A stretch of 64,000 bases of DNA from positions 270,001 through 334,000 of the forward strand of contig CAUYUJ010015749.1 in assembly GCA_963575745.1 (NCBI GenBank), given 5' to 3'. The position numbers were made by a program, and so were the translations under genes. Below are positions 8,320 to 64,000 of this stretch, one piece after another (position 1 is the stretch's first letter; each line of letters opens with the position of its first letter). This DNA is from Prorocentrum cordatum (Eukaryota; Sar; Dinophyceae; Prorocentrales; Prorocentraceae). The notes beneath the pieces are model-generated. The model was not told the origin of the DNA. It did not search any database and worked only from the letters and a program-made list of their open reading frames with translations.

Positions 8320-9140
8320 CTGGCGTAGGTCCGCGCGGGACGTCGCTCCGCAGGACCCTCCATGGCAGCCCGCGAAAGCGGCGACAGTTTCGCAGGACGC
8401 AGCCCCCCAGGGATGGCGAGGTCTAATTTCGGTCCGCGTGGGACGCAACTCCGCTGGAACCCCCAGCAGCCCTCGAACGTGGCGACATCTTCGCCGATCG
8501 CAGCCCCCCAGGGATGGCGAGGTCTGATTTAGAGCCGTGTTGGACGTCACTCCGCTGGAACCCCTGGCAGCCCTTGGAAGTGGCGATCGTTTCTTGTATC
8601 GCAGCCCCCCAGGGACGGCGAGGTCTAATTTGGTTCTGCGTGGGACGTCGCTCCGCTATACCGCTATACCCCCCGACGGCCTCTAAAAGCGACGACCGTT
8701 TCGCAGATCGCAGCCCCCCCCAGGGATGACGAGGTTTTGTTTTGAGTCCCTTGTGGGTCGGCACTCCGCTTGACCCATTAGCACACTAGCAGCCATCGAA
8801 AGTGGCGACAGTTTCGCAGATCGCAGCCCCCCAGGTGTGGCGAGGTTTAGTGTAGGTCCCCGTGGGACGTCGCTCCGCTGGACCCCCTCAGCAGCCTGCG
8901 ACAGTTTGGCTGGACGCAGCCTCCCAGGGATGGCGAGGTGTAGTGTCGGTCCGCGTGGAACGGCGCTCCGTTGGTCTCCCCAGCAGCCCGCGAACGTGGC
9001 GACAGTTTCGTTTATCGCAGCCCCCCCGATGGTGGCGAGATCTAATTTACGTCCGCTTGGGACGTCAATGCGCTTGACCTCCCAATAGCATTCAAAAGTG
9101 GCGACCGTCTCGCAGATCGCAGCCCCCAAAGGGAACCCCC
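8320..9140 (+). repeat. ~102-bp satellite array, ~8 copies
   Basis: Units carry GATCGCAGCCCCCCAGGGAT, GG.CCGCGTGGGACG, CTCCGCTGGA and AGTGGCGACAGTTTCGCAG. CTCCGCTGGAA recurs at 8449 and 8550. Homologous to 1078-1410. Confidence 0.9.
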
Positions 9141-39635: not shown

Positions 39636-40882
39636 TTTTAGCCTTAGCTTTAGCTTTAGCTTAGCTTTAGCTTTAGCTTTAGCTTTAGCTTAGCTTTAGC
39701 TTAGCTTCAGCAAAGTGTTAGCTTAGCTTTAGCTTAGTTTTAGCTTAGCTTTAGCTTAGCTTCAGCTTAGTGTTAGCTTAGCTTTAGTAGCTTAGTTTTA
39801 GCTTTAGCTTTAGCTTAGCTTTAGTTTAGCTTTAGCTTAGCTTTAGCTTATATTTAGCTTAGCTTTAGCTTAGCTTCAGCTCAGCTTTAGCTTAGCTTTA
39901 GCTTAGCTTTAGCTTAGCTTTAGATTTAGCTTTAGCTTAGCTTTAGCTTAGCTTTAGCTTAGCTTTAGCTTAGCTTCAGCTCAGCTTCAGCTCAGCTTTA
40001 GCTTAGCTTTAGCTTAGTGTTAGTTTAGCCTTAGCTTAGCTTTAGCTTATATTTAGCTTTAGCTCTAGCTTAGCTTTAGCTTAGCTTTAGCTTAGTGTTA
40101 GCTTAGCTTTAGTTTTGCTTTAGCTTAGCTTTAGCTTAGTGTTAGCTTAGCTTTAGCTTAGCTTTAGCTTAGCTTTAGCTTAGCTTTAGCTTAGCTTTAG
40201 CTTAGCTTTAGCTTAGCTTTAGCTTAGCTTTAGCTTAGCTTTAGCTTAGCTTTAGCTTAGCTTCAGCTTAGTGTTAGCTTAGCTTTAGTTTAGCTTTAGC
40301 TTAGCTTTAGCTTAGCTTCAGCTCAGTGTTGGCTTAGTTTTAGCTTAGTGTTAGCTTGGTGTTAGCTTAGCGTTAGCTTAGCTTTAGCTTAGCTTTAGCT
40401 TAGCTTTAGCTTGGCTTCAGCTTAGCTTCAGCTTAGTTTTAGCTTAGTTTTAGCTTAGCTGTAGCTTAGATTTAGCTTAGCTGTAGCTTAGCTTTAGCTT
40501 AGCTTTAACTTAACTTTAGCTTAGCTTCAGCTTAGCTTTAGCATAGCTTTAGCTTAGCTCCAGCTCAGCCTTAGCTTAGCGTTAGCTTAGTTTTCGCTTA
40601 GCTTCAGCTTAGCTTTAACTTAGCTTTAACTTAGATTTAGCTTAGATTTAGCTTAGCTTTAGCTTATATTTAGCTTCAACGTTAGCTTAGCTTTAGCTTA
40701 GCTTTAGCTTATAGTTAGCTTAGTTTTAGCTTAGCTTCAGCTTAGCTTTAGCTTAGCTTTAGCTTAGTGATAGCTTAGCCTTAGCTTAGCTTTTGCTTAG
40801 CTTTAGCTTAGCTTCAGCTTAGCTTTAGCTTAGCTTTAGCTTAGCTTTAGCTTAGCTTTAGCTTAGCTTTAGCTTAGCTTTA
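39636..40882. repeat. 11-bp array (TTTAGCTTAGC)n, ~1.25 kb
   Basis: About 110 units, mostly TTTAGCTTAGC with TTCAGC, GTTAGC, TTTAGT and TATTTAGC variants. Homogeneous between 40140 and 40260, more diverged toward the middle right. AT-rich inside GC-rich DNA. No significant ORF in any frame. Ends abruptly at both sides. Confidence 0.98.
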
Positions 40883-51269: not shown

Positions 51270-51425
51270 TAGGTCACTTTACAACCAGCAGGGGATCGAA
51301 TTCCATGGTTTACCTTTGAGAACGACCACTTTACAACCAGAGAAGCCCACTTTACAACCAGAACGACTACTTTACAACCCAGACGGGGCTCTTTGCAACC
51401 AGAGCGGCCACTTTACAACCAACCT
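51270..51425 (+). repeat. ~22-bp repeat CACTTTACAACCAGA
   Basis: Seven units of (C/T)ACTTTACAACCAGA plus 6-8 variable bases. The same repeat in reverse orientation lies at 53770-53885. Confidence 0.9.
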
Positions 51426-53769: not shown

Positions 53770-53885
53770 ACTCGCCTGGTTGTAGAGTGGCCTTTCTGGT
53801 TGTAAAGTGCCCTTCTGGGAAAACCCATGCTGGTTGTAAAGTGCCCCATCAGGTTGTAAGTGGCCGTTCCGGTTGCAATGTGACC
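53770..53885 (-). repeat. ~22-bp repeat CACTTTACAACCAGA, reverse orientation
   Basis: GGTTGTAAAGTGCCC units, five copies. Together with 51270-51425 they bracket ~2.4 kb of other satellites as inverted repeats. 53885-54850 contains nothing recognised. Confidence 0.85.
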
Positions 53886-54859
53886 CGCACGCCCCCCCCC
53901 CTGGGACCCCCCCTCCCGCCGGGGACGGGACAAAGGGACGTGGCGTCGCTTTGACGTAATGCGGACGTGAATGGAATTCCCTCAAGCTGCGAACCCGCTC
54001 CCCGAACAAGGAAGGTGCTGTCTCTCTCCCTCGACGGGGGGGGGACGAAAGAAGGCTCCCCGTCGACGGGACCGGACAGACACCCCACACACGCCGACAG
54101 GGTCGGCGGATTTCTGGGCCCCCATGATTCCAATATGCCTTAGGCCGCCTTCCTCCTTGAATCATCGAGTGGTTCCCCCTTTTCCTGCCTCTGTGGATGG
54201 CGGGCGCAAACCGAATCTACGTGCATCGCCTTCCTGCTTCATGCTTCAACGCGCTTCTTCCGAAGGAAGGAAGGAAGGAAACAGTGCTGCTGGAGGTCCC
54301 GCGCCCGTGCCTCTGTAGGGCTGCCGGGCTCGCTCAGTGAAACTACAGCCAGATCAGTCTGCGTAGCGCTTGCGGGGCCGCCCAAGCACGCGAGTGCCTT
54401 CAGGTGTCCAATTCAACAGCTTGGTGGAAGAGCGCCCGTCCTACTGGGCTTGCTGTTGATCGTTCCAGCTGCGGTGACCAGCGCGCCGGAAAAAACCTTC
54501 GGCCCTCCGCGTGGCGCGTATAACCCAGTCTACTCACATGTCTTGCTCAATACTTAAATCGGCCAGCTAATAATGCCCTCGCGGCGTCTGAACGATGCGC
54601 CGCAGCATTTCCTTCTCCTCAGTCTGTAGCCTGCGAGCCCGTTCGGCCGTCATAGTCCAGCATCAGCTGTCGTACAGTAATGGAGGATGACGATTAATAA
54701 ATGACCGGGGGTCGTGTTCACGCGGCGGCGCCCGGGATGACGATTAGAAAAAACCGGCCGCGGGCTGGAAAACTATTTTCTTTAATCGTTCTCCGCAAGT
54801 GAGAAACTTGTGCAGAAATGTCAGAAAACTATGTTTTTAATCGTTCCCCCCTCATTTTT

Positions 54860-56296
54860 CCCAACCATCCTGTGGTGTTGGGTCCTCGTTTTGAAGAGAC
54901 GGTGCCCCGCGTCCTTCTCCTCCTCCTCCTCTCCTCCTCCTCCTCCTCCCCCTCCTCCCTCCCCCTTGCCTCTGCCCTCCGCATGTCTCTGTTTCGGCAC
55001 ATCCCTCACGCGTTCCGTGGCCCCATAGGGAGCTCCACCGACGGCCCCAGTGGCAGGGTACGCATGGCGGCCCCACATTTTGGCGCACCCCTCACACGGT
55101 TCGTGGCCCCATAAGGAGCTCCACCGAAGGCCCCAGTGGCAGGGTCCGCATGGCGGCGCCGCATTTTGGCACACCCCTCACACGGTTCGTGGCCCCTTAG
55201 GCAGCTCCACCGAAGGCCCCAGTGGCAGGGTCCGCATGGCGGCCCCGCATTTTGGCGCACCCCTCACACGGTTCCCCAGTGGCAGGGTCCGCATGGCGGC
55301 CCCGCATTTTGGCGCACCCCTCACACGGTTCGTGGCCCCATAGGGAGCTCCACCGAAGGCCCCAGTGGCAGGGTCCGCATGGCGGCCCCGCATTTTGGCG
55401 CACCCCTCACACGGTTCGTGGCCCCATAGGGAGCTCCACCGAAGGCCCCAGTGGCAGGGTCCGCATGGCGGCCCCGCATTTTGGCGCACCCCTCACACGG
55501 TTCGTGGCCCCATAGGGAGCTCCACCGAAGGCCCCAGTGGCAGGGTCCGCATGGCGGCCCCGCATTTTGGCGCACCCCTCACACGGTTCGTGGCCCCATA
55601 GGGAGCTCCACCGAAGGCCCCAGTGGCAGGGTCCGCATGGCGGCCCCGCATTTTGGCGCACCCCTCACACGGTTCGCCCCACCCGCATAGGGAGCGTGGA
55701 GCTCCACCGAAGGCCCCAGTGGCAGGGTCCGCATGGCGGCCCCGCATTTTGGCGCACCCCTCACACGGTTCGTGGCCCCATAGGGAGCTCCACCGAAGGC
55801 CCCAGTGGCAGGGTCAGCATGGCGGCCCCGCATTTTAGCGCACCCCTTACACGGTTCGTGGCCCCATAGGTAGCTCCACCGAAGGCCCCAGTGGCAGGGT
55901 CCGCATGGCGGCCCCGCATTTTGGCGCACCCCTCACACGGTTCGTGGCCCCATAGGGAGCTCCACCGAAGGCCCCAGTGGCAGGGTCCGCATGGCGGCCC
56001 CGCCCCATTTTGGCGCACCCCTCACACGGTTCGTGGCCCCATAGGGAGCTCCACCGAAGGCCCCAGTGGCAGGGTCCGCATGGCGGCCCCGCCCCATTTT
56101 GGCGCACCCCTCACACGGCTCGTGGCCCCATAGGGAGCTCCATCGAAGGCCCCAGTGGCAGGGTCCGCATGGCGGCCCCGCCCCATTTTGGCGCACCCCT
56201 CACACGGGTCGTGGCCCCAAAGGGAGCTCCACCGAAGATGATGCCCACGATTGCGGTATTAACAATTGCTTATGGTTGGGTCTTTCGCCAGGCTAA
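54860..56296 (+). mobile_element. Compound satellite-carrying element, copy 1
   Basis: Left block CCCAACCATCC, TGTGGTGTTGGG and TCGTTTTGAAGAGAC; a CTC tract 54910-54960; ~14 units of an 86-bp repeat (GTGGCAGGGTCCGCATGGCG ... CACACGGTTCGTGGCCCCAT) from ~54995 to 56235; right block CCCACGATTGC and GGTTGGGTCTTTCGCCAGGC, then TAA. The left end can form a CCCAAC/GTTGGG stem-loop and its CCCAACC pairs with the right-end GGTTGGG. No protein coding. Units are nearly identical, so expansion is recent. It abuts the 3' part of the LINE at 56310-60825. Confidence 0.85.
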
Positions 56297-56299
56297 TGT

Positions 56300-59200
56300 A
56301 TTAATCGTCATCCCGCATTACGGAAGAGGTCACTGTTGCGCTAAAAAGACGCATTATACAGCGCAGCGGGAAATGTTTATTTGTCAATTCCTTCTTGAAC
56401 TTTCCTAATGTAGCCAACCCACGAGAAAGGCGGTGAGTCAGTTCGTCTTCGTGGAAGTTCGCGAACGAAACTTGTGTGCCCAGGTTGTGAGTGTCGCCGT
56501 GGTAAGGAAGCATAACTTCGTGCCCTTCGCCCACCTGAACTGGTTCTTGCCGCGGAACCCCGCGCCAGACTTCCACGTTCGACAATATCTTCGTCTTGCC
56601 CATGTGCAGATTGAGCCCGCACTCGCCCGCCCGCACTCGCCGAGCAGATTGCGCTACCCTCTGCAAGTCGCAGAGCATGTGGTGGATCTGAGCACGAGAC
56701 GACCCCAACCAACAACATGTCATCTGCAAACCGAAAGTTTGTGAGGCACTCGCCCTCGCTGCGAACACCGCGCCTCTCCTGTCTCCACGCGCACTTCACG
56801 TCGCGCATGAAGTTCTCCAAAACCGCGTGGGAGAGAGCGAGGCTTCGCGGATCGCCCTGGCGCGCGCCTCTCTCCAGACTGGAAGCCCAGTTGTTTCGGC
56901 CTGACACCACTTGCGCTGTCTGTCACCTGTACAGACGAGCCAGTGTCTGGATGTCCTGCTCCAGCACAAGTTGGGCGCGCAGACGCTGTCGTGAGAAACT
57001 GAATCAAAAGCTGATTCAAAGCCGACTGCGGCAACCCACTGGCCCCTGCCGGATTCCCGACACTTCTCGTGCAGCAGTGTCAGCGTGAGTGGATGGCCGT
57101 CGCAAGAGAAGTTTTTCCCCAACCATCCTGTGGTGTTGGGTCCTCGTTTTGAAGAGACAGCGCCCCGCGCCCCACCTTTCTCCTCCTTCCTCCTCCTTCC
57201 TCCTTCCTCCTTCCTCCTCCTCCTCCCCCTCCTCCTCCCGCTCCTCCCTCCTCCCCCTCTTCCCTGCGTTTCACCCACCCAGGGCAGCGCTTCGTGGCCC
57301 CATAGGGAGCTCACCGAAGGTCCCAGTGGTACAGCCCGCATGCGGTTCCCCCACCCCGGGCAGTGTTTCGTAGCCCCATAGGGAGCTCCACCGAAGGTCC
57401 CAGTGGCACAGCCCGCATGCGGTTCCCCCACCCAGGGCAGCGTTTCGTGGCCCCATAGAGAGCTCCACCGAAGGTCCCAGTGGCACAGCCCGCATACGGT
57501 TCCCCCGCCCAGGGCAGCGTTTCGTGGCCCCATAGGGGGCTCCACCGAATGTCCCAGTGGCACAGCCCGCACGCGGTTCCCCCTACCCGGCGCAGCGTTT
57601 CGTAGCCCCATAGGGAGTTCCACCGAAGGTCCCAGTGGCACAGCCCGCATGCGGCTCCCCCACCCAGGGGAGCGTTTCGTACCCCCATGGGGAGCTCCGC
57701 CGAAGGTCCCAGTGGCACAGCCCGCACGCGATTCCCTCGCCCAGGGCAGCGTTTCGTGGCCCCATAGGGAGCTCCACCGAATGTCCCAGTGGCACAGCCC
57801 GCATGCCGTTCCCCCGCCCAGGGGAGCGTTTCGTACCCCCATGGGGAGCTCCACCGAATGTCCCAGTGGCACAGCCCGCATGCGATTCCCCCGCCCAGGG
57901 CAGCGTTTCGTGGCCTCATAGGGAGCTCCACCGAAGGTCCAGTGGCACAGCCCGCATGCGGTTCCCCCACCCAGGGCAGCGTTTCGTAGCCCCATAGGGA
58001 GCTCCACCGAATGTCCCAGTGGCACAGCCCGCATGCGGTTCCCTCACCCAGGGCTGCGTTTCGTGGCCCCATAGGGAGCTCCACTGAAGGTCCCAGTGAC
58101 GCAGCTCGCATGCGCCCCCCCCACCCAGTACAGCGTTTCGTGGCCCCATAGGGAGCTCCACCGAAGGTCCCAGTGGCGCAGTTCGCCCCCACCCAGTACA
58201 GCGTTTCGTGGCCTCATACGGGGCTCCCCCGAATGCGATACCGACGATTGCATATGGTTGGGTCCTTCGCCAGGCTAATTTGAAACCAGCTTGGTCCACG
58301 GACTGCTCTGGTGCAAGATATACTTCTAGCCGGCTATGCATTGCCATGCTGAAGAATTCGCGCAGGCTTTGGCAACAATGAGATCGGCCCGTAGTTCTGC
58401 GGTCATTTGGGATCACCTTTTTTGAAAAGTACGGACACCTGACAATATTTCCAAGACGCTAGCGGCTCACCGCAATTTCAAATCACCTCCGTGTACAGGT
58501 CCGCAATAGCTTCCAAGAGGGCTGGTCCTCAGCATTTGAGCATTTCTGCCATTACCCCTTGGCGGTCAGCAGCTTTTCCTATTTTCATCCGCTTCACTTG
58601 CTCCCGGACTTCGTCAACCCTGACTGGAGGTATTTCGAAGGCGGCCATTCTGGCAGATGTTGCGCGCGTCGATGGTGGAGGACATTGCCCTTGAGAGCGC
58701 AGGGATTCGTAGAACGTTACGAATGCATCGGCGATGTCTTGGCGGCGGTCTGTTCCGGTCTGACCCTCTGAATCGAGGACGCTCGGCAGGCGAGTCTTCC
58801 TTCCTCGATTGTAGATGGCACAGACATTTCGCACGCCCCTGCACTCACGTCTCTGGATCTCTTTCTGCAGTTCCTTGCTAACGATTTTGAGCGGTCTGTG
58901 ATCGCCCCCCAGCCTGTCCACGCCTCGCCCCTCGTGTCTCTCCGCAATGAGCTTTCGGATGTTGTAGTTCTGGCTCGGCTTGTCCCTGCCCCTGCCGCGT
59001 TGGTGGTCTGAGCGGATTGCACCGTTGCTCGCTCGATGTCTTCGCATTCTGCTTGTAGGGACTGAGCGCTGGCAGGCCGATCCCGTGCATGACTGGGAAT
59101 AGTTTCGTCCACCTTTGCTGAAAACGCTCTGCCAGAAGGAGGCGGCCACCTGCACTGCGCGGGCGGGCGTTCTCTGCCAACGCTCGCAGTGCGGATCCGG

Positions 59201-60825
59201 ATCTTGAGAGATCTGCATTTGTGGTCCACTCCAACACGCACGCAGTTTGTAATCTCGCAATCCAAAACCATGCCGAGGGCTTCTGATGTCATCTAGAAAA
59301 AATCCATTTAACGGCGGCATCCTGCTTGGAAGTGGGTCCATTGCTTCTCAAATGGCTTATTGAAAAACGTATTTATTACAGCCACATTTTCAGAGCGAGC
59401 CCAGGAAGTCATCCACTCTCCCCTCGGATGTTGTCTTCCAGCCCCATACTCCCCGACAAATTGGTCGACCAGGTGGCTGCCCATGGATCCAACGACGGCG
59501 TTCCAATCCCTTCCAATACTGACTACGAACTTGTTCCTGTCCGCTTCCAGCTAGCAAGCCGACAGGTCGTCATGCACGGCCTCAGCTTCTGCGTTGGCAG
59601 AAAACTATGTGGAAGAGAATGGAGACAATGCGCAAGCGCGTGGCTCCGAACGACACATCAAGCCAACACCCTGTCTGATACAGCCGAAAATGCAATTATC
59701 GAGGACGGCCAAAGCCTGTGAAGTACGATTGCAATCCCGTTTATTCCAGAATCGCTTCCAGCTCCCCAAAAACAACATGTTTATCATCAAGGTCGAATTT
59801 CTCCTCCTTGGTGTCTCGCCATGTTCCGTTCAGCAATATAGCGTCCCAATGCTTCAGGCAATCAGTTTCTGTCAACAAATCTGCAACACGATGCTTCATT
59901 TTTATGGACCCCACTTTCTTACACCACATGACGGTTGAAGAAATGGACATATCTTCACCGCTGGCGTCTCCATTGTTGGGGACGCGCGCAACCGTGAATC
60001 TTGCGAAGATAGACCTTCGATGTAGAAGTGAATCGGGTATGAGAATTTGGCCTCCGACTGGAATTGTTCGCCGACTCTGGCGGCATCGCTTCCTCCTCGC
60101 CGAGCGGGTCGTTGACGGCACCCTCCACCTTAGCGATGCCGATGTCGATGCCGAGATTCTGACCGTTTTCTTCCGTTCATTTTCCGACCCGAAGACGTTT
60201 CACCATCAATATTTTCATTGGGTACATTTCATTCGCTTAAATTAGGTATCAGATGCCGACCTATATAATTTAGCCGAGATCTATCATTACCGAGTCTAAT
60301 TTTACCGAGCCGGGGGGAAGGAAAGCAGTCGCATGTTGAAGTATGCCATAGGAAATGAGAGTGTGAGTGGGCCGAACCAGTTTCCGGAATTATGGAAGTC
60401 GGGCGCCGAGATTTCCGATCTAGTTTCTCCGAGATTTCGTTTCACCGATGTTTTTTTTTAACGAGCGGTGGCTGGTTCATTTTTGCGACCTCTGGTTGTA
60501 CCATTCCCAGCTTTATGAGAGCTCGTTTGTAGTTGCCAAGGGTCTTAGCTCCCCGCCGTTCTGCTGGGCTTCTGGTACTTAACAGTTGCCCACAGACCTC
60601 TCGCCTTACATTTCGGCCTCGTCTCCCCAACAAGGCTGGCGTGGTAGTTTTTCATGCCCCCTGGAGTGCCGAAGTGAACGAAACCAACACTCCCAAAGGC
60701 GTAAGCGTAAACCTCCTCCACGTTTGGTGTATCTTTAACGATCTGCGTGGTTATGCGGTCGACGATCTCCTTCCTCTCACTCTCGTCCTCAAACCCTCCG
60801 ACAACCATAGTGCGACGGAAACGCT
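56300..60825 (-). pseudogene. LINE with RRM-like ORF, endonuclease and RT; interrupted
   Basis: Read on the - strand. 60822-60460: an RRM-like domain (TMVVGGFEDESERKEIVDRI; EEVYAYAFGSVGFVHF), then NYKRALIKLGMVQPE. 60120-59300: degraded endonuclease (WDAILLNGTWRDTKEEKF) with a later EN C-terminus. 59300-58530: connector ending VDEVREQVKRMKIGKAADRQ, the conserved RT entry motif. 58470-58279: VLFKKGDPK and QAGFK. 57112-56960: FSCDGHPLTL and VGFESAFDSVSHD, the RT A motif. 56880: ARQGDP. 56745: FRFADDMLLVGVV, the catalytic box. 56380: KELTNKHFPLRCIMRLFSAT. Stops and frameshifts throughout mean it is dead. The compound element at 57117-58278 splits the RT. Sequence 3' of the thumb is lost at the junction with compound copy 1 near 56300. 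The RRM-like ORF probably binds the element RNA. Confidence 0.85.
57117..58278 (+). mobile_element. Compound satellite-carrying element, copy 2, inside an RT gene
   Basis: Same left block (CCCCAACCATCC ... TCGTTTTGAAGAGAC), a CTC/TCC tract 57175-57260, ~13 units of a 77-bp repeat related to the 86-bp unit (CGTTTCGTGGCCCCATAGGG ... GGTCCCAGTGGCACAGCCCG), and the right block CCGACGATTGC, ATATGGTTGGGTCCTTCGCC and AGGCTAA. On the - strand the LINE frame reads VDQAGFK up to 58279 and resumes NFSCDGHPL at 57112, so this is a clean insertion into RT coding sequence. T-runs lie at both junctions. Confidence 0.9.
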
Positions 60826-60863
60826 CTCCCTCCTCCCACTCTTTCCGACCGATGCTTAATTTG

Positions 60864-60900
60864 CCGGACGTCCGCGCGGATGCTCTGGATCTGCGCTGGA
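60864..60900 (+). mobile_element. Half copy of TIR family A
   Basis: GACGTCCGCGCGGATGCTCT followed by GGATCTGCGCTGGA matches one arm of family A. No second arm found. Adjoins the 5' end of the LINE relic. Confidence 0.6.
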
Positions 60901-60934
60901 CCCCCCCGGCGAGCGGAGCGCGTCAGGGGCGAGG

Positions 60935-61040
60935 AGAAGGAGGAGGAGGAGGAGGAGGAGGTGATGGAGGAAGAATATGATAAGGGAAAGGGAAACAGGA
61001 GGAGGAGGAGGAGGAGGAGGAGAAGGAGGAGAAGGTGGAG

Positions 61041-61137
<97 letters not shown>

Positions 61138-61205
61138 GCAAGGCGGCGACGGCGGCGGCGGCGGCGGCAGCAGCCGACGACGGCGACGTCGACGATGACG
61201 GCGAG
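60935..61205. repeat. (GGA)n, (GAC)n, (GGCGAC)n tracts
   Basis: GGA-rich 60935-61035, then GAC, GGCGAC and GGC runs. Long charged or Ala/Thr frames are artefacts. 61205-61600 holds nothing recognised. Confidence 0.95.
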
Positions 61206-61607
61206 GAGGAGCTGACAACCGTGGCTGCGCTTTGACCCCCGTGGGCCCGCCAAAGCGCGGTCGCACGGGAGCCAGGCCCCGCACTGCCCGCGAACCGCGC
61301 ACCCTCCTCGGCGCCCCCTTGGCGCCTGCGCAGAAGGGAGGGGGGGAGAAGGCCGGAGGAGAAGGCAGACCGGCAACGAATGTTGGCGGCGAGCGAGGGG
61401 GGGAAGTGAGCAGGAGAAGGCCCTCTCAGAAGGCGGCTGGACTTCTCAGAGGCCCTCGCTCCTTCAGCTGTTTGCTGCTTCTTCGGGGAAGGAGTACAAC
61501 ACTTCTAAGAAGGCTCGGGAACTTCCGAGCCTCCTGGGAAGGCCTTCTCTTTTTCACTTCCCCCCCGGGTTTGCTGCCGACGAATTTCAGGAGGTCCACA
61601 CGTATTT

Positions 61608-61698
61608 CCCAACCATCCTGTGGTGTTGGGTCCTCGTTTTGAAGAGACGGTGCCCCGCGTTCCTCTTCTCCTCCTCCTCCCCCCGCCCTCCCTCCTCC

Positions 61699-61784
<86 letters not shown>

Positions 61785-61968
61785 CCACCGAATTCGGCAC
61801 ACCCCTCACACGTTTCGTGGCCCCATAGGGAGCTCCACCGAAGGCCCCAGTGGCAGGGTCCGCATGCCTCCCCACCACCCATTTCGGCACACCCCTCACA
61901 CGTTTCGTGGCCCCATAGGGAGCTCCACCGAAGGCCCCAGTGGCAAGGGTCGCATGCCTCCCCACCAC
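61608..61968 (+). mobile_element. Compound satellite-carrying element, copy 3, cut by a gap
   Basis: Left block (CCCAACCATCC, GTGTTGGGTCCTCG, TTTTGAAGAGACGG), CTC then ~29 ATC units (61697-61783), and two 86-bp-type units (CACACGTTTCGTGGCCCCAT) running into the N gap. The right block is not seen. Confidence 0.85.
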
Positions 61969-62068
61969 NNNNNNNNNNNNNNNNNNNNNNNNNNNNNNNN
62001 NNNNNNNNNNNNNNNNNNNNNNNNNNNNNNNNNNNNNNNNNNNNNNNNNNNNNNNNNNNNNNNNNNNN
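61969..62068. other. 100-N assembly gap
   Basis: Exactly 100 N, the usual placeholder for a gap of unknown size. It falls where a satellite array meets a tetranucleotide repeat, so array length is unknown. Confidence 0.99.
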
Positions 62069-62126
62069 GTGCGTGCGTGCGTGCGTGCGTGCGTGCGTGT
62101 GTCGTGTTTGTTTGTTTGTGTGTGTG

Positions 62127-62178
<52 letters not shown>

Positions 62179-62203
62179 TGTGTCGTGTGTGTGTTTGTGT
62201 GTG

Positions 62204-62234
<31 letters not shown>

Positions 62235-62328
62235 ATGCGTGTGTGTGTGTGTGTTTGCGTGTGTGTGTGTGCGTGTATGTATGCATGCATGCATGCATGT
62301 ATGTATGTATGCATGTATGTGTGTGGGT
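62069..62328. repeat. (GTGC)n/(GT)n/(GTAT)n microsatellite
   Basis: GTGC tetranucleotides with GTTT, GT and GCAT/GTAT variants for ~260 bp. Confidence 0.97.
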
Positions 62329-62447
62329 GGAGCTCGGCCTGGCGGCACGGTTCGAGGGCCCGAGGTGCCCCTCCTTCCCTGCAAGGCGCGAACAACACAT
62401 GTGCCCTCGAGGGCGCTCGCAGGCAGCTGAGCGCTCTGCATGCCCAG

Positions 62448-62579
62448 CGTCCGGGGCGCCGAGGTCTGCGGCGGGCCGGAGCAGCGGGGGGCCGACCTCT
62501 TCAAGCTGCGCGCGCAGCTGCGTCGGGACCCCGAGGCGCCGCGCGGCCCGCGCCACGGCGCATCGGGTGTGCGCCAGAG
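62448..62579 (+). CDS. Candidate exon with canonical donor, unknown protein
   Basis: Acceptor-like TGCATGCCCAG and donor CAGAG|GTGAGC, the best splice donor in the window. In the GC3-rich frame it reads [20 protein letters not shown] and then [16 protein letters not shown]. An in-frame stop at ~62428 means the exon starts after it. An ATG at 62440 (MPSVRGAEV) could instead make this a first exon. A short helix ([12 protein letters not shown]) is predicted. Family unknown. Confidence 0.55.
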
Positions 62580-63075
62580 GTGAGCACGACCCGTGTTCGC
62601 CTTTCGATTGCTCTCAGCAGCGCGGAACCCTTGCGCCGTGTCGCGGTTTGTCAAGGCAGACGCGCGCAGGATGATCAAGTCAGATGAGAGGTCAGCCTCG
62701 CAGTAGGTGGCTCACGGGGTCTATCTATTCATCCCCCACAGCCCCCCCCCTCCGTGACCCACAGGCGTCTTGGGGCCATCAAAGGAAGGGTTAAAGGTGG
62801 ACCTTGACTGTGTCGTACAAACGCCCCACTCACCCACCCACAACTTGTCGGCACAAACTCAACTTGGCGGCGACGATGACGAGGACGATGGCGATGATGG
62901 TGCTGATGACGACGGTGGGGGCGATGTCGACGAAGACGATGGTGATTGTGTTATGGCTGATACAAAAGATGAAAACAACACCTTGTCAAATGGGGTAAAC
63001 GGTAGATGGTTAATTGAAGTACACAGAAGGCATTGATCTCCACGGCACTGCTTGCCCGAATCCATCGGCGTGGAG
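62580..63075. other. Intron-like and retroelement 3' flank; no gene
   Basis: Contains an acidic GATGAC/GACGAT patch at 62868-62945, a decayed triplet tract. Nothing else identified. Confidence 0.45.
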
Positions 63076-63077
63076 TC

Positions 63078-63797
63078 TGTTAGTTTTCAGACATTCCAAG
63101 ACGGAGAATACCCACTCCAAGTTTGGATGCTGCCAACATCATGCGAGCCCGATCCGCCCACTGGTCAGCTGCAGAAGACGTAATCCAACCACTCTTCGAG
63201 GTCACTCTTGGGACGGACGTCCAGAATGCTGGTGGGAGGCTGTGCGCCAGGGCTACCTCGTCACGCAGCGCTTGGTGTCGTGGGTACTCTGCCCACACGT
63301 GACTGAAAGAGGGCACCACATGCCCGCAGTGGTTACAGCTCGAGCCAGTCCGCCGCCTCGTCTCCGAGGTGACGGCACCACATCGATGAATCGCCAAGGG
63401 GGTCCAGTCCGATCCGCCTCCGAGAGGCTCTGCACCCACTTCATATAAGCTTTGCTAGACCCCAAGGATACGCCGACATCGTCAATCTCCTCGGCGTCGT
63501 GTCTCGTCCTGACCACTGTCTGGATGCATCGGATACGGCATATCAGTCTGATGGCATGTTCGGCCGCCAGGGTTCCCGTCCAGAACCTCCAGCGGTCATC
63601 CACCAGGTCGTTGACTGCGTCACGTACATTGAAGTCATCGCTCGGATCCACTTCCAAAAGCAAGCCTTGGGTGGGAGAGAGACGCACGAACTGCAAGCCG
63701 ATTGCCTGCACGTGGTAGGTGATGGACGGCTCGACAAAAGCCGACCAAACCAGATGCTGATGCATGACATTCTTGATCGCAAAAATGACAGCCCAAA
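63078..63797 (-). pseudogene. LINE C-terminal fragment
   Basis: Read on the - strand from 63797: AVIFAIKNVMHQHLVWSAFV, then LVDDRWRFWTGTLAAEHAIR, then after a frameshift near 63330 CNHCGHVVPSFSHVWAE with a following ALRDEVALAHSLPPAFW, and ILRLGMSEN with a stop at ~63080. The C-x2-C...H motif followed by ..HQALR is the zinc-knuckle-like C-terminus of dinoflagellate non-LTR elements, downstream of RT. Its upstream part is replaced by compound-element copy 4 at 63798. Confidence 0.6.
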
Positions 63798-64000
63798 TTA
63801 TCCTGGCGAGGGACCCAACCATGTGCAGTTGTGAGTGACGCAGTTGTGGGTATCGACATCGGTGAACCTCTCTGGGGTCACGACGCGTGTGACGGGTGTG
63901 CCAAAATTGGCACGGGTACGCCATGCGGACGCTGCCACCAGAGCCGTCGGTGGAACACCCTATGGGGCCGCGGAACGTGCAAGGGGTGCGCCGAAATGGG
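63798..64000 (-). mobile_element. Compound satellite-carrying element, copy 4, right end, window-truncated
   Basis: Reverse orientation. The reverse complement reads ...CCACAACTGC, CATGGTTGGGTCCCTCGCCA, GGATAA at the boundary, preceded by diverged 86-bp-type units (GGCGCACCCCTTGCACG, CGGCCCCATAGGGTG). It runs off the window edge. Confidence 0.75.

Follow-up and report, generated by a model that had tools for sequence, protein, structure and literature searches.

Array-carrying insertions with fixed ends in the dinoflagellate Prorocentrum cordatum, probably rolling-circle elements of the Helentron/HINE kind

Four copies in the window

The analysis was carried out on a stretch of 64,000 nucleotides from the dinoflagellate Prorocentrum cordatum (GenBank assembly GCA_963575745.1, contig CAUYUJ010015749.1, positions 270,001 to 334,000 of the forward strand), here called the window, in which an element with two fixed ends and a tandem array between them is present in four copies. 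The G+C content of the window is 59.1%, and the source genome that was searched comprises 4.13 Gb in 21,875 contigs. In every window copy, as far as it can be read, a left block is followed by a pyrimidine or triplet tract, then by a tandem array and finally by a right block. This order and the arrays were found as claimed in a preliminary description of the same DNA, with arrays measured at 77–90 bp units. The larger claim of that description, a mobile compound element with fixed ends around a tandem array, is borne out by the end pairing and the empty sites reported below.

Copy 1 is a complete element of 1437 bp on the plus strand (54860–56296; left end exact, right end with one mismatch). 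Its left block (54860–54911) starts with CCCAACC, contains the inverted repeat CCCAAC/GTTGGG and is conserved to ∼52 bp. A TCC triplet tract (54912–54958), a tandem array of 86–90 bp units (54992–56237) and a right block (56238–56296), the end of which reads ATGGTTGGG...GGCTAA, follow on the same strand. Copy 2, also complete and on the plus strand, spans 1161 bp (57118–58278) and interrupts a repeated, coding-like sequence of the minus strand to which it is unrelated, with a pyrimidine (CTC/CCTT) tract at 57175–57263, an array of 77 bp units at 57265–58181 and a right block at 58238–58278. Copy 3 is a left part on the plus strand (61608–61968), where an exact left block is followed by a CAT tract (61699–61784) and an array of 90 bp units (61783–61968). 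It is truncated by an assembly gap of N at 61969–62068; its right end was looked for and not found, the element entering the gap. Copy 4 lies on the minus strand and contributes its right end and first array units (63798–64000; right block 63798–63822), the rest lying beyond the window. It is complete at 1732 bp, with its left end at C14900:335504–335529, that is, at window coordinates 65504–65529.

The left block is an exact match at 54860, 57118 and 61608; right blocks terminate at 56296 (one mismatch) and 58278, and a reversed one is present at 63798. In the preliminary description the second left block had been placed at 57117, one base early: the true start is 57118, because paralogous empty sites hold a base at 57117, mostly C. 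An Rfam search of 54500–64000 gave five matches, all under gathering scores, and four of these fall in a microsatellite at 62205–62325.

Insertion into T-rich sites

Judged by comparison with related sequences, copies 1, 2 and 4 are insertions, because their flanks, once joined, match paralogous sites that are uninterrupted. The preliminary description had called the copies insertions, as opposed to a plain satellite locus, and had proposed a search for empty sites; uninterrupted paralogues were obtained for three of the four copies. For copy 1, 40 of 2063 candidates were scored, and all 38 non-self places listed are uninterrupted, at 91–96% identity. As judged from match lengths only, the match falls short of the joined query by 0–3 bases at the eight best-matching places and by as many as 7 at others. 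For copy 2, 14 non-self matches were obtained, of which 11 span the junction without the element and 3 stop short of it; nine of the 11 were read letter by letter, and their sequence runs on across the junction. The closest of these empty sites are TTTC|TTGAA or TTC|TTGAA, one base shorter than the filled site. For copy 4, 13 of 16 non-self matches span the junction without the element, the remaining three being two pieces of one site (on contig C4224, locus L107) and one short further piece of contig C17545. Letters were read for 9 of the 13 and for L107, and the filled site has two additional bases compared with the empty ones. No target-site duplication of 3 bp or more was seen at the two junctions read (copies 2 and 4).

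The host of copy 1 (54677–54859 and 56297–56321) is a short abundant repeat of ∼208 bp, with 2063 first-look candidates, 40 of them scored. By eye it has inverted ends near GGATGACGATTAATA and the look of a miniature inverted-repeat transposable element. At one of the copy 2 empty sites (contig C2614), other DNA of roughly 0.9 kb lies ∼100 bp from the junction; when scanned for the left and right blocks, this DNA contained neither. L107 (C4224:1085868–1086421), one of the paralogues of the copy 4 site, contains an additional stretch of ∼200 bp located ∼20 bp upstream of the junction. This stretch ends with CACAG, after which the host resumes with G, and it may be an intron or some other insertion.

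Copy 2 had been described as sitting cleanly inside a reverse transcriptase frame. It does lie inside repeated coding-like sequence, but the reverse transcriptase label is motif-based and without a database match. An uninterrupted 170-amino-acid paralogue of the copy 2 host gave no match in Pfam, NCBIfam or PDB. The host pieces of copies 2 and 4 likewise gave none in Pfam, PDB or NCBIfam, and a large protein search with them returned 67 candidates, none with E ≤ 0.001. The label is therefore unproven for the host of both copies. Note also that the two half-frames flanking copy 2 lie in different frames once joined.

Introner-type elements, which are insertions spliced as introns, are reported from Prorocentrum and other dinoflagellates, and they are reported to be enriched in the introns of P. 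cordatum (PMC10666404). That the present element belongs with them is very unlikely: copies 2 and 4 are in repeated coding-like sequence, copy 1 is in a short high-copy repeat, and the flanks listed have no fixed GT or AG at the boundary in element orientation.

Flank base frequencies were derived from a fuzzy-match search in which copy 1 was passed over at its right end (giving a length of 3419) and other right ends may have been missed as well; the comparison of adjoining elements below used the same setting. T occupies positions −1 and −2 in 85% and 91%, respectively, of 54 distinct left flanks, and A occupies −1 in 2%. In 51 distinct right flanks, T occupies +1 and +2 in 96% and 86%, respectively, whereas the window as a whole has 59% G+C. 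The preference for T fades beyond about five bases. The element thus inserts into T-rich sites.

Neighbouring elements were located with patterns for adjoining ends. Head-to-tail junctions (a right end followed within 14 bases by a left end) gave 175 exact genome matches, with 0 for the control, versus 3 places for tail-to-tail and 2 for head-to-head; the three junction patterns differ somewhat in length and strictness. Head-to-tail spacers are T-rich in most of the 100 places listed, and contig C13534 carries four such junctions spaced 1.5–1.7 kb apart, in a run at 162572–167457. The head-to-tail orientation can be explained because the T-run of an existing element would serve as a new target. 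When adjoining elements were compared, the pair at L061 was 75% alike and the pair at L012 was 75% alike over a short stretch; to judge from this divergence, the neighbours at these two loci are likely to be separate insertions. The pair at L067 was 90% alike over 185 bp and the pair at L032/L043 was 94% alike over 630 bp, and on these values the neighbours may have arisen either by tandem copying or by repeated insertion.

Abundance, pairing of the ends and the tandem array

With up to two mismatches allowed, a 26-mer from the left end gave 32,257 genome matches (15,992 and 16,265 on the two strands) and a 25-mer from the right end gave 21,072 (10,489 and 10,583). Controls with reversed left and right patterns gave 0 matches genome-wide. 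Pairing was assessed at 38 left-anchored loci (8 chosen by similarity and 30 that were the first listed exact matches) and 30 right-anchored loci; some of these partly overlap one element (for example, L032 and L043) and are not all independent. Right ends were accepted at up to five mismatches, by plain mismatch matching, within a reach of ∼1.5 kb.

At the left-anchored loci, a right end on the same strand was found within this reach for 18 of 39 left ends, and one on the opposite strand for 0 of 39. At the right-anchored loci, a left end was found no more than 1.5 kb upstream on the same strand in 9 of 30 cases and on the opposite strand in 1 of 30. Considering all left ends with 1.5 kb of downstream DNA, the corresponding values are 28 of 49 and 4 of 49. 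These figures are lower bounds, because elements longer than 1.5 kb, decayed ends and gaps escape detection. The end density alone, taken from the counts at up to two mismatches, would give ∼0.4%. Left and right blocks, for which genome-wide pairing had been proposed as a test, are thus paired far above chance (18 of 39 on the same strand versus ∼0.4% expected). The median length of paired elements is ∼1.2 kb (28 values, with a bias towards short elements owing to the 1.5 kb reach); if this length is applied to all left ends, the family is estimated to make up ∼1% of the genome.

A 28-mer core of the array unit gave 323,302 genome matches, with 0 for the control. At up to five mismatches, the core was found within 65 of the 68 sampled loci, always in the orientation of the ends and in the opposite orientation in 0 of 68; the total for core orientation relative to the ends is 704 same versus 0 opposite. 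The loci without a core are L020, L024 and L025. By eye, L025 has coding-like sequence past the triplet tract, and L020 and L024 diverge early. Unit spacing differs among elements, with values of 77, 86–90 and ∼113 bp. As only three of the 68 loci lack the core, the array belongs to the family as a regular component and is not an occasional cargo.

The array core is ten times commoner than the left end, and some loci (L003, L004, L007 and L008) have flanks in common. Both observations would suit a plain satellite family spread by recombination or segmental duplication, in which the end blocks are conserved array borders. This explanation is extremely unlikely, however, being contradicted by empty sites in three different host sequences, by the targeting of T-runs and by the regular order and orientation of the parts.

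Tandem repeats of other kinds are also present in the window. At 39637–40882 there are ∼112 tandem copies of an 11 bp unit, TTTAGCTTAGC. Two arrays at 1094–1407 and 8326–9127 have units of ∼101–102 bp, and the two consensus units have in common, by eye, a sequence similar to GCGACAGTT(G/T)(C/G)GCAGATCGCAGC. Short repeat arrays at 51319–51421 and 53776–53875 are apparent reverse complements of each other (CCACTTTACAACC and GGTTGTAAAGTG).

End structure, candidate machinery and relation to known elements

In the window copies, the two ends share an asymmetric 9 bp inverted repeat, with CCCAACCAT at the 5′ end and ATGGTTGGG 16 nt inside the 3′ end. Other loci are no independent test of this repeat, because the ends there were found with the same patterns. 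A further inverted repeat, CCCAAC/GTTGGG with its arms 11 nt apart, is nested inside the 5′ terminal repeat, which is a feature of DINE-1 type; across 12 end variants, each of the six pairs shows its most frequent form in 9 to 12. A microsatellite and central tandem repeats are present, as expected of HINEs, for which a comparable feature set has been described (PMC4067079, PMC7492417).

An inverted CCCAACCAT common to both ends, two junctions without target duplication and the lack of a Rep partner in the sample would also fit a cut-and-paste or other DNA transposon that makes no target duplication, such as a Crypton-type tyrosine-recombinase element, with the arrays as passengers. We regard this as quite unlikely. 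The inverted repeats are placed asymmetrically, one directly at the 5′ end and its counterpart 16 nt inside the 3′ end; an additional inverted repeat is nested in the former, as in DINE-1. In addition, targeting of T-runs with a variable number of T is a reported behaviour of Helentrons (PMC4067079).

Helitron Rep domains (PF14214; loci L078, L081, L084 and others) with long open frames gave at least 151 matches in the genome (150 of 1615 candidates scored) and were found in 0 of 14 control genomes. The matches listed include two families of equal-length frames, at least 9 of 1797 amino acids and at least 11 of 1099 amino acids; one pair of each was compared, and both pairs were 99% alike. For two Rep families, boundaries were found by comparing one copy pair each, and their ends are unlike those of the array element. 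The 1099-amino-acid family starts near a palindrome, TTTTCCCTATCAAATGATAAGGGAAAA. The three scanned frames that contain the Rep domain also match an Stc1 model.

Blocks near Rep genes at L084 (6 edits), L094 (exact) and L109 (2 edits) were considered as possible ends of Rep-carrying elements and were rejected, because they are wrongly oriented or lie beyond the element. Weak partial end matches beside the Rep loci L074 and L077 were set aside. At L084:4340–4362, a diverged sister of the left end follows GTTTTT and has a perfect 7 bp stem, CCCAACC/GGTTGGG. A related family with a sister left end therefore seems, from this one sequence, to exist.

Right-end termini were read beside left-anchored ends (n = 20). 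Eight are CTAA and four are CTAG, so that 12 of 20 have the form CTRR, mostly followed by T; the other eight are ATAA (four) and CTTT, CTAT, GTAA and ATAT (one each). Together with the two families of equal-length Rep frames, and with a Helitron-type sequence in all 13 of the readable Rep motifs, these termini favour a derivative of canonical Helitrons that is mobilized by the Helitron-type Rep genes of the genome. Such a derivative is nonetheless unlikely. Eight of the 20 right ends are not CTRR, and the 16–20 nt 3′ palindrome that accompanies CTRR in canonical Helitrons is absent. There is no fixed 5′ TC, as copy 2 starts with CCC after a C that is found also in most of its empty sites. Insertion between A and T is not seen either, the left neighbour being T in 85% of the 54 flanks and A in only 2%. 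Finally, the 5′ ends of the two bounded Rep families differ from that of the element.

The unit is probably a non-autonomous member of the Helentron/HINE (DINE-1) kind of rolling-circle transposon. This interpretation is the best supported because the junctions read have no target duplication, the target is a T-run in which the number of T varies, asymmetric inverted repeats are accompanied by a nested one at the 5′ end, a microsatellite and an oriented array are present, and Helitron Rep domains are abundant. Several observations weigh against it. Thirteen groups of Rep loci, sorted by the author, had no left or right block at the expected gene ends in the partial, mostly upstream, flanks covered. 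Motif 2 was readable in 13 of 15 Rep loci, which were drawn from the best-scoring matches and include copies of each other. It is RGLPHxH, the Helitron form, in all of them, and none has RGSPHxH, the Helentron form (motif rule from PMC4067079). The inverted repeat of 9 bp and the 3′ tail of 16 nt are shorter than the 12–15 bp and 38–60 bp of mite HINEs (PMC4067079). No convincing 3′ palindrome was found, with at most three pairs, mismatches in many of 21 variants and energies no better than those of shuffled sequences. The left-end stem-loop proposed earlier from CCCAACC/GGTTGGG is real as a CCCAAC/GTTGGG stem, but its folding energy is ordinary for its composition (z = −0.92). A right end on the opposite strand lies near 4 of 49 left ends, and the 12 of 20 right ends with CTRR fit the Helitron form.

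The preliminary description had noted a likeness to Helentron-associated elements of the DINE-1 type and had called it only architectural. The likeness goes beyond architecture, as it includes the T-rich target, the lack of ordinary duplication at the junctions read, the nested 5′ inverted repeat and the one-way array. Full membership is not established: the 3′ palindrome is unsupported, the inverted repeat has 9 bp where 11 bp or more would be expected, and the part examined yielded no autonomous partner.

As a rolling-circle transposon of this kind, the element would be moved by a Rep/helicase supplied in trans from elsewhere, which would recognize both short ends: at the 5′ end CCCAACCAT with its nested inverted repeat, and at the 3′ end ATGGTTGGG with the 16 nt ending in CTAA (as in window copies 1 and 2). 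One strand would be copied, and the copy would be joined into a run of T. Joining would add one or two bases, mostly T, without ordinary target duplication. The microsatellite tract and the oriented array would travel along, and since the array lies between the ends, each insertion would plant a small satellite array. The roles given here to the end motifs are inferred.

More tentatively, the family could be a separate dinoflagellate rolling-circle lineage that combines a Helentron-like 5′ end and T-run target with a Helitron-like 3′ end (often CTRR|T, without a palindrome), is moved in trans by a Helitron-type Rep and is a main maker and scatterer of satellite DNA. This possibility is doubtful; if it were true, ∼32,000 left ends and 320,000 repeat units, or roughly one percent of 4.1 Gb, would come from such a lineage. 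In any case, end blocks in the tens of thousands and satellite units in the hundreds of thousands are explained by one family. Because it has exact ends and empty sites, the family is easy to find, date and test, and it lends itself to studying how satellite arrays are built and dispersed by rolling-circle elements.

Dinoflagellates have very large genomes, the repeats of which are poorly classified. A literature search on Helitrons and Helentrons and on rolling-circle and tandem-repeat elements in dinoflagellates, covering titles and the starts of abstracts of mostly open-access papers, showed no description of such a family among the entries listed. Helitrons in Symbiodinium are mentioned in one sentence of one paper (PMC9087856). 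They are not mentioned in a 2024 review of dinoflagellate genomics (PMC11453091), and the term does not appear in the main text of the article on the P. cordatum genome (PMC10666404).

Among known systems, canonical Helitrons resemble the element in the 3′ CTRR of 12 of its 20 right ends, mostly followed by T, and in lacking a target duplication; they differ in their fixed 5′ TC, A|T target and 16–20 nt palindrome. The Helitron2 elements of Chlamydomonas have asymmetric terminal inverted repeats and a T-rich target. Both features are shared with the element described here, for which, unlike Helitron2, no coding element with the same ends was seen.

The likeness to DINE-1/INE-1 of Drosophila and HINE-Mo of mites extends to subterminal inverted repeats, as read in the window copies, a microsatellite with central repeats, a T-rich target and variable flanking T (PMC4067079); with DINE-1 specifically, the element also shares a 5′ inverted repeat that lies in part within the terminal repeat (PMC4067079). 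In those elements, however, the inverted repeats are 12–15 bp and the 3′ repeat is 38–60 nt from the end (PMC4067079), compared with 9 bp and 16 nt here; across published HINE families the inverted repeats are 11–15 bp. The 3′ palindrome is also unsupported here.

The element also resembles Cg_HINE of the Pacific oyster and the bivalve Pearl elements, which have a left flank composed of a terminal repeat, a nested inverted repeat and a microsatellite, a one-way tandem array, a short right flank with a complementary repeat, and a T-rich target with empty sites and no target duplication (PMC7492417). In the oyster study, too, an autonomous element could not be related to Cg_HINE (PMC7492417). 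Units in the dinoflagellate host are ∼77–113 bp, versus 140–180 bp in Cg_HINE and Pearl, and there are often more than five per element; the lack of a clear 3′ palindrome and the presence of a related core in 65 of 68 loci are further differences. HINE-like carriers of satellite arrays are thus known from animals, and what is new here is the missing 3′ palindrome, the regular array and the host group, so that the DINE-1/HINE pattern, known mostly from animals, is extended to a dinoflagellate.

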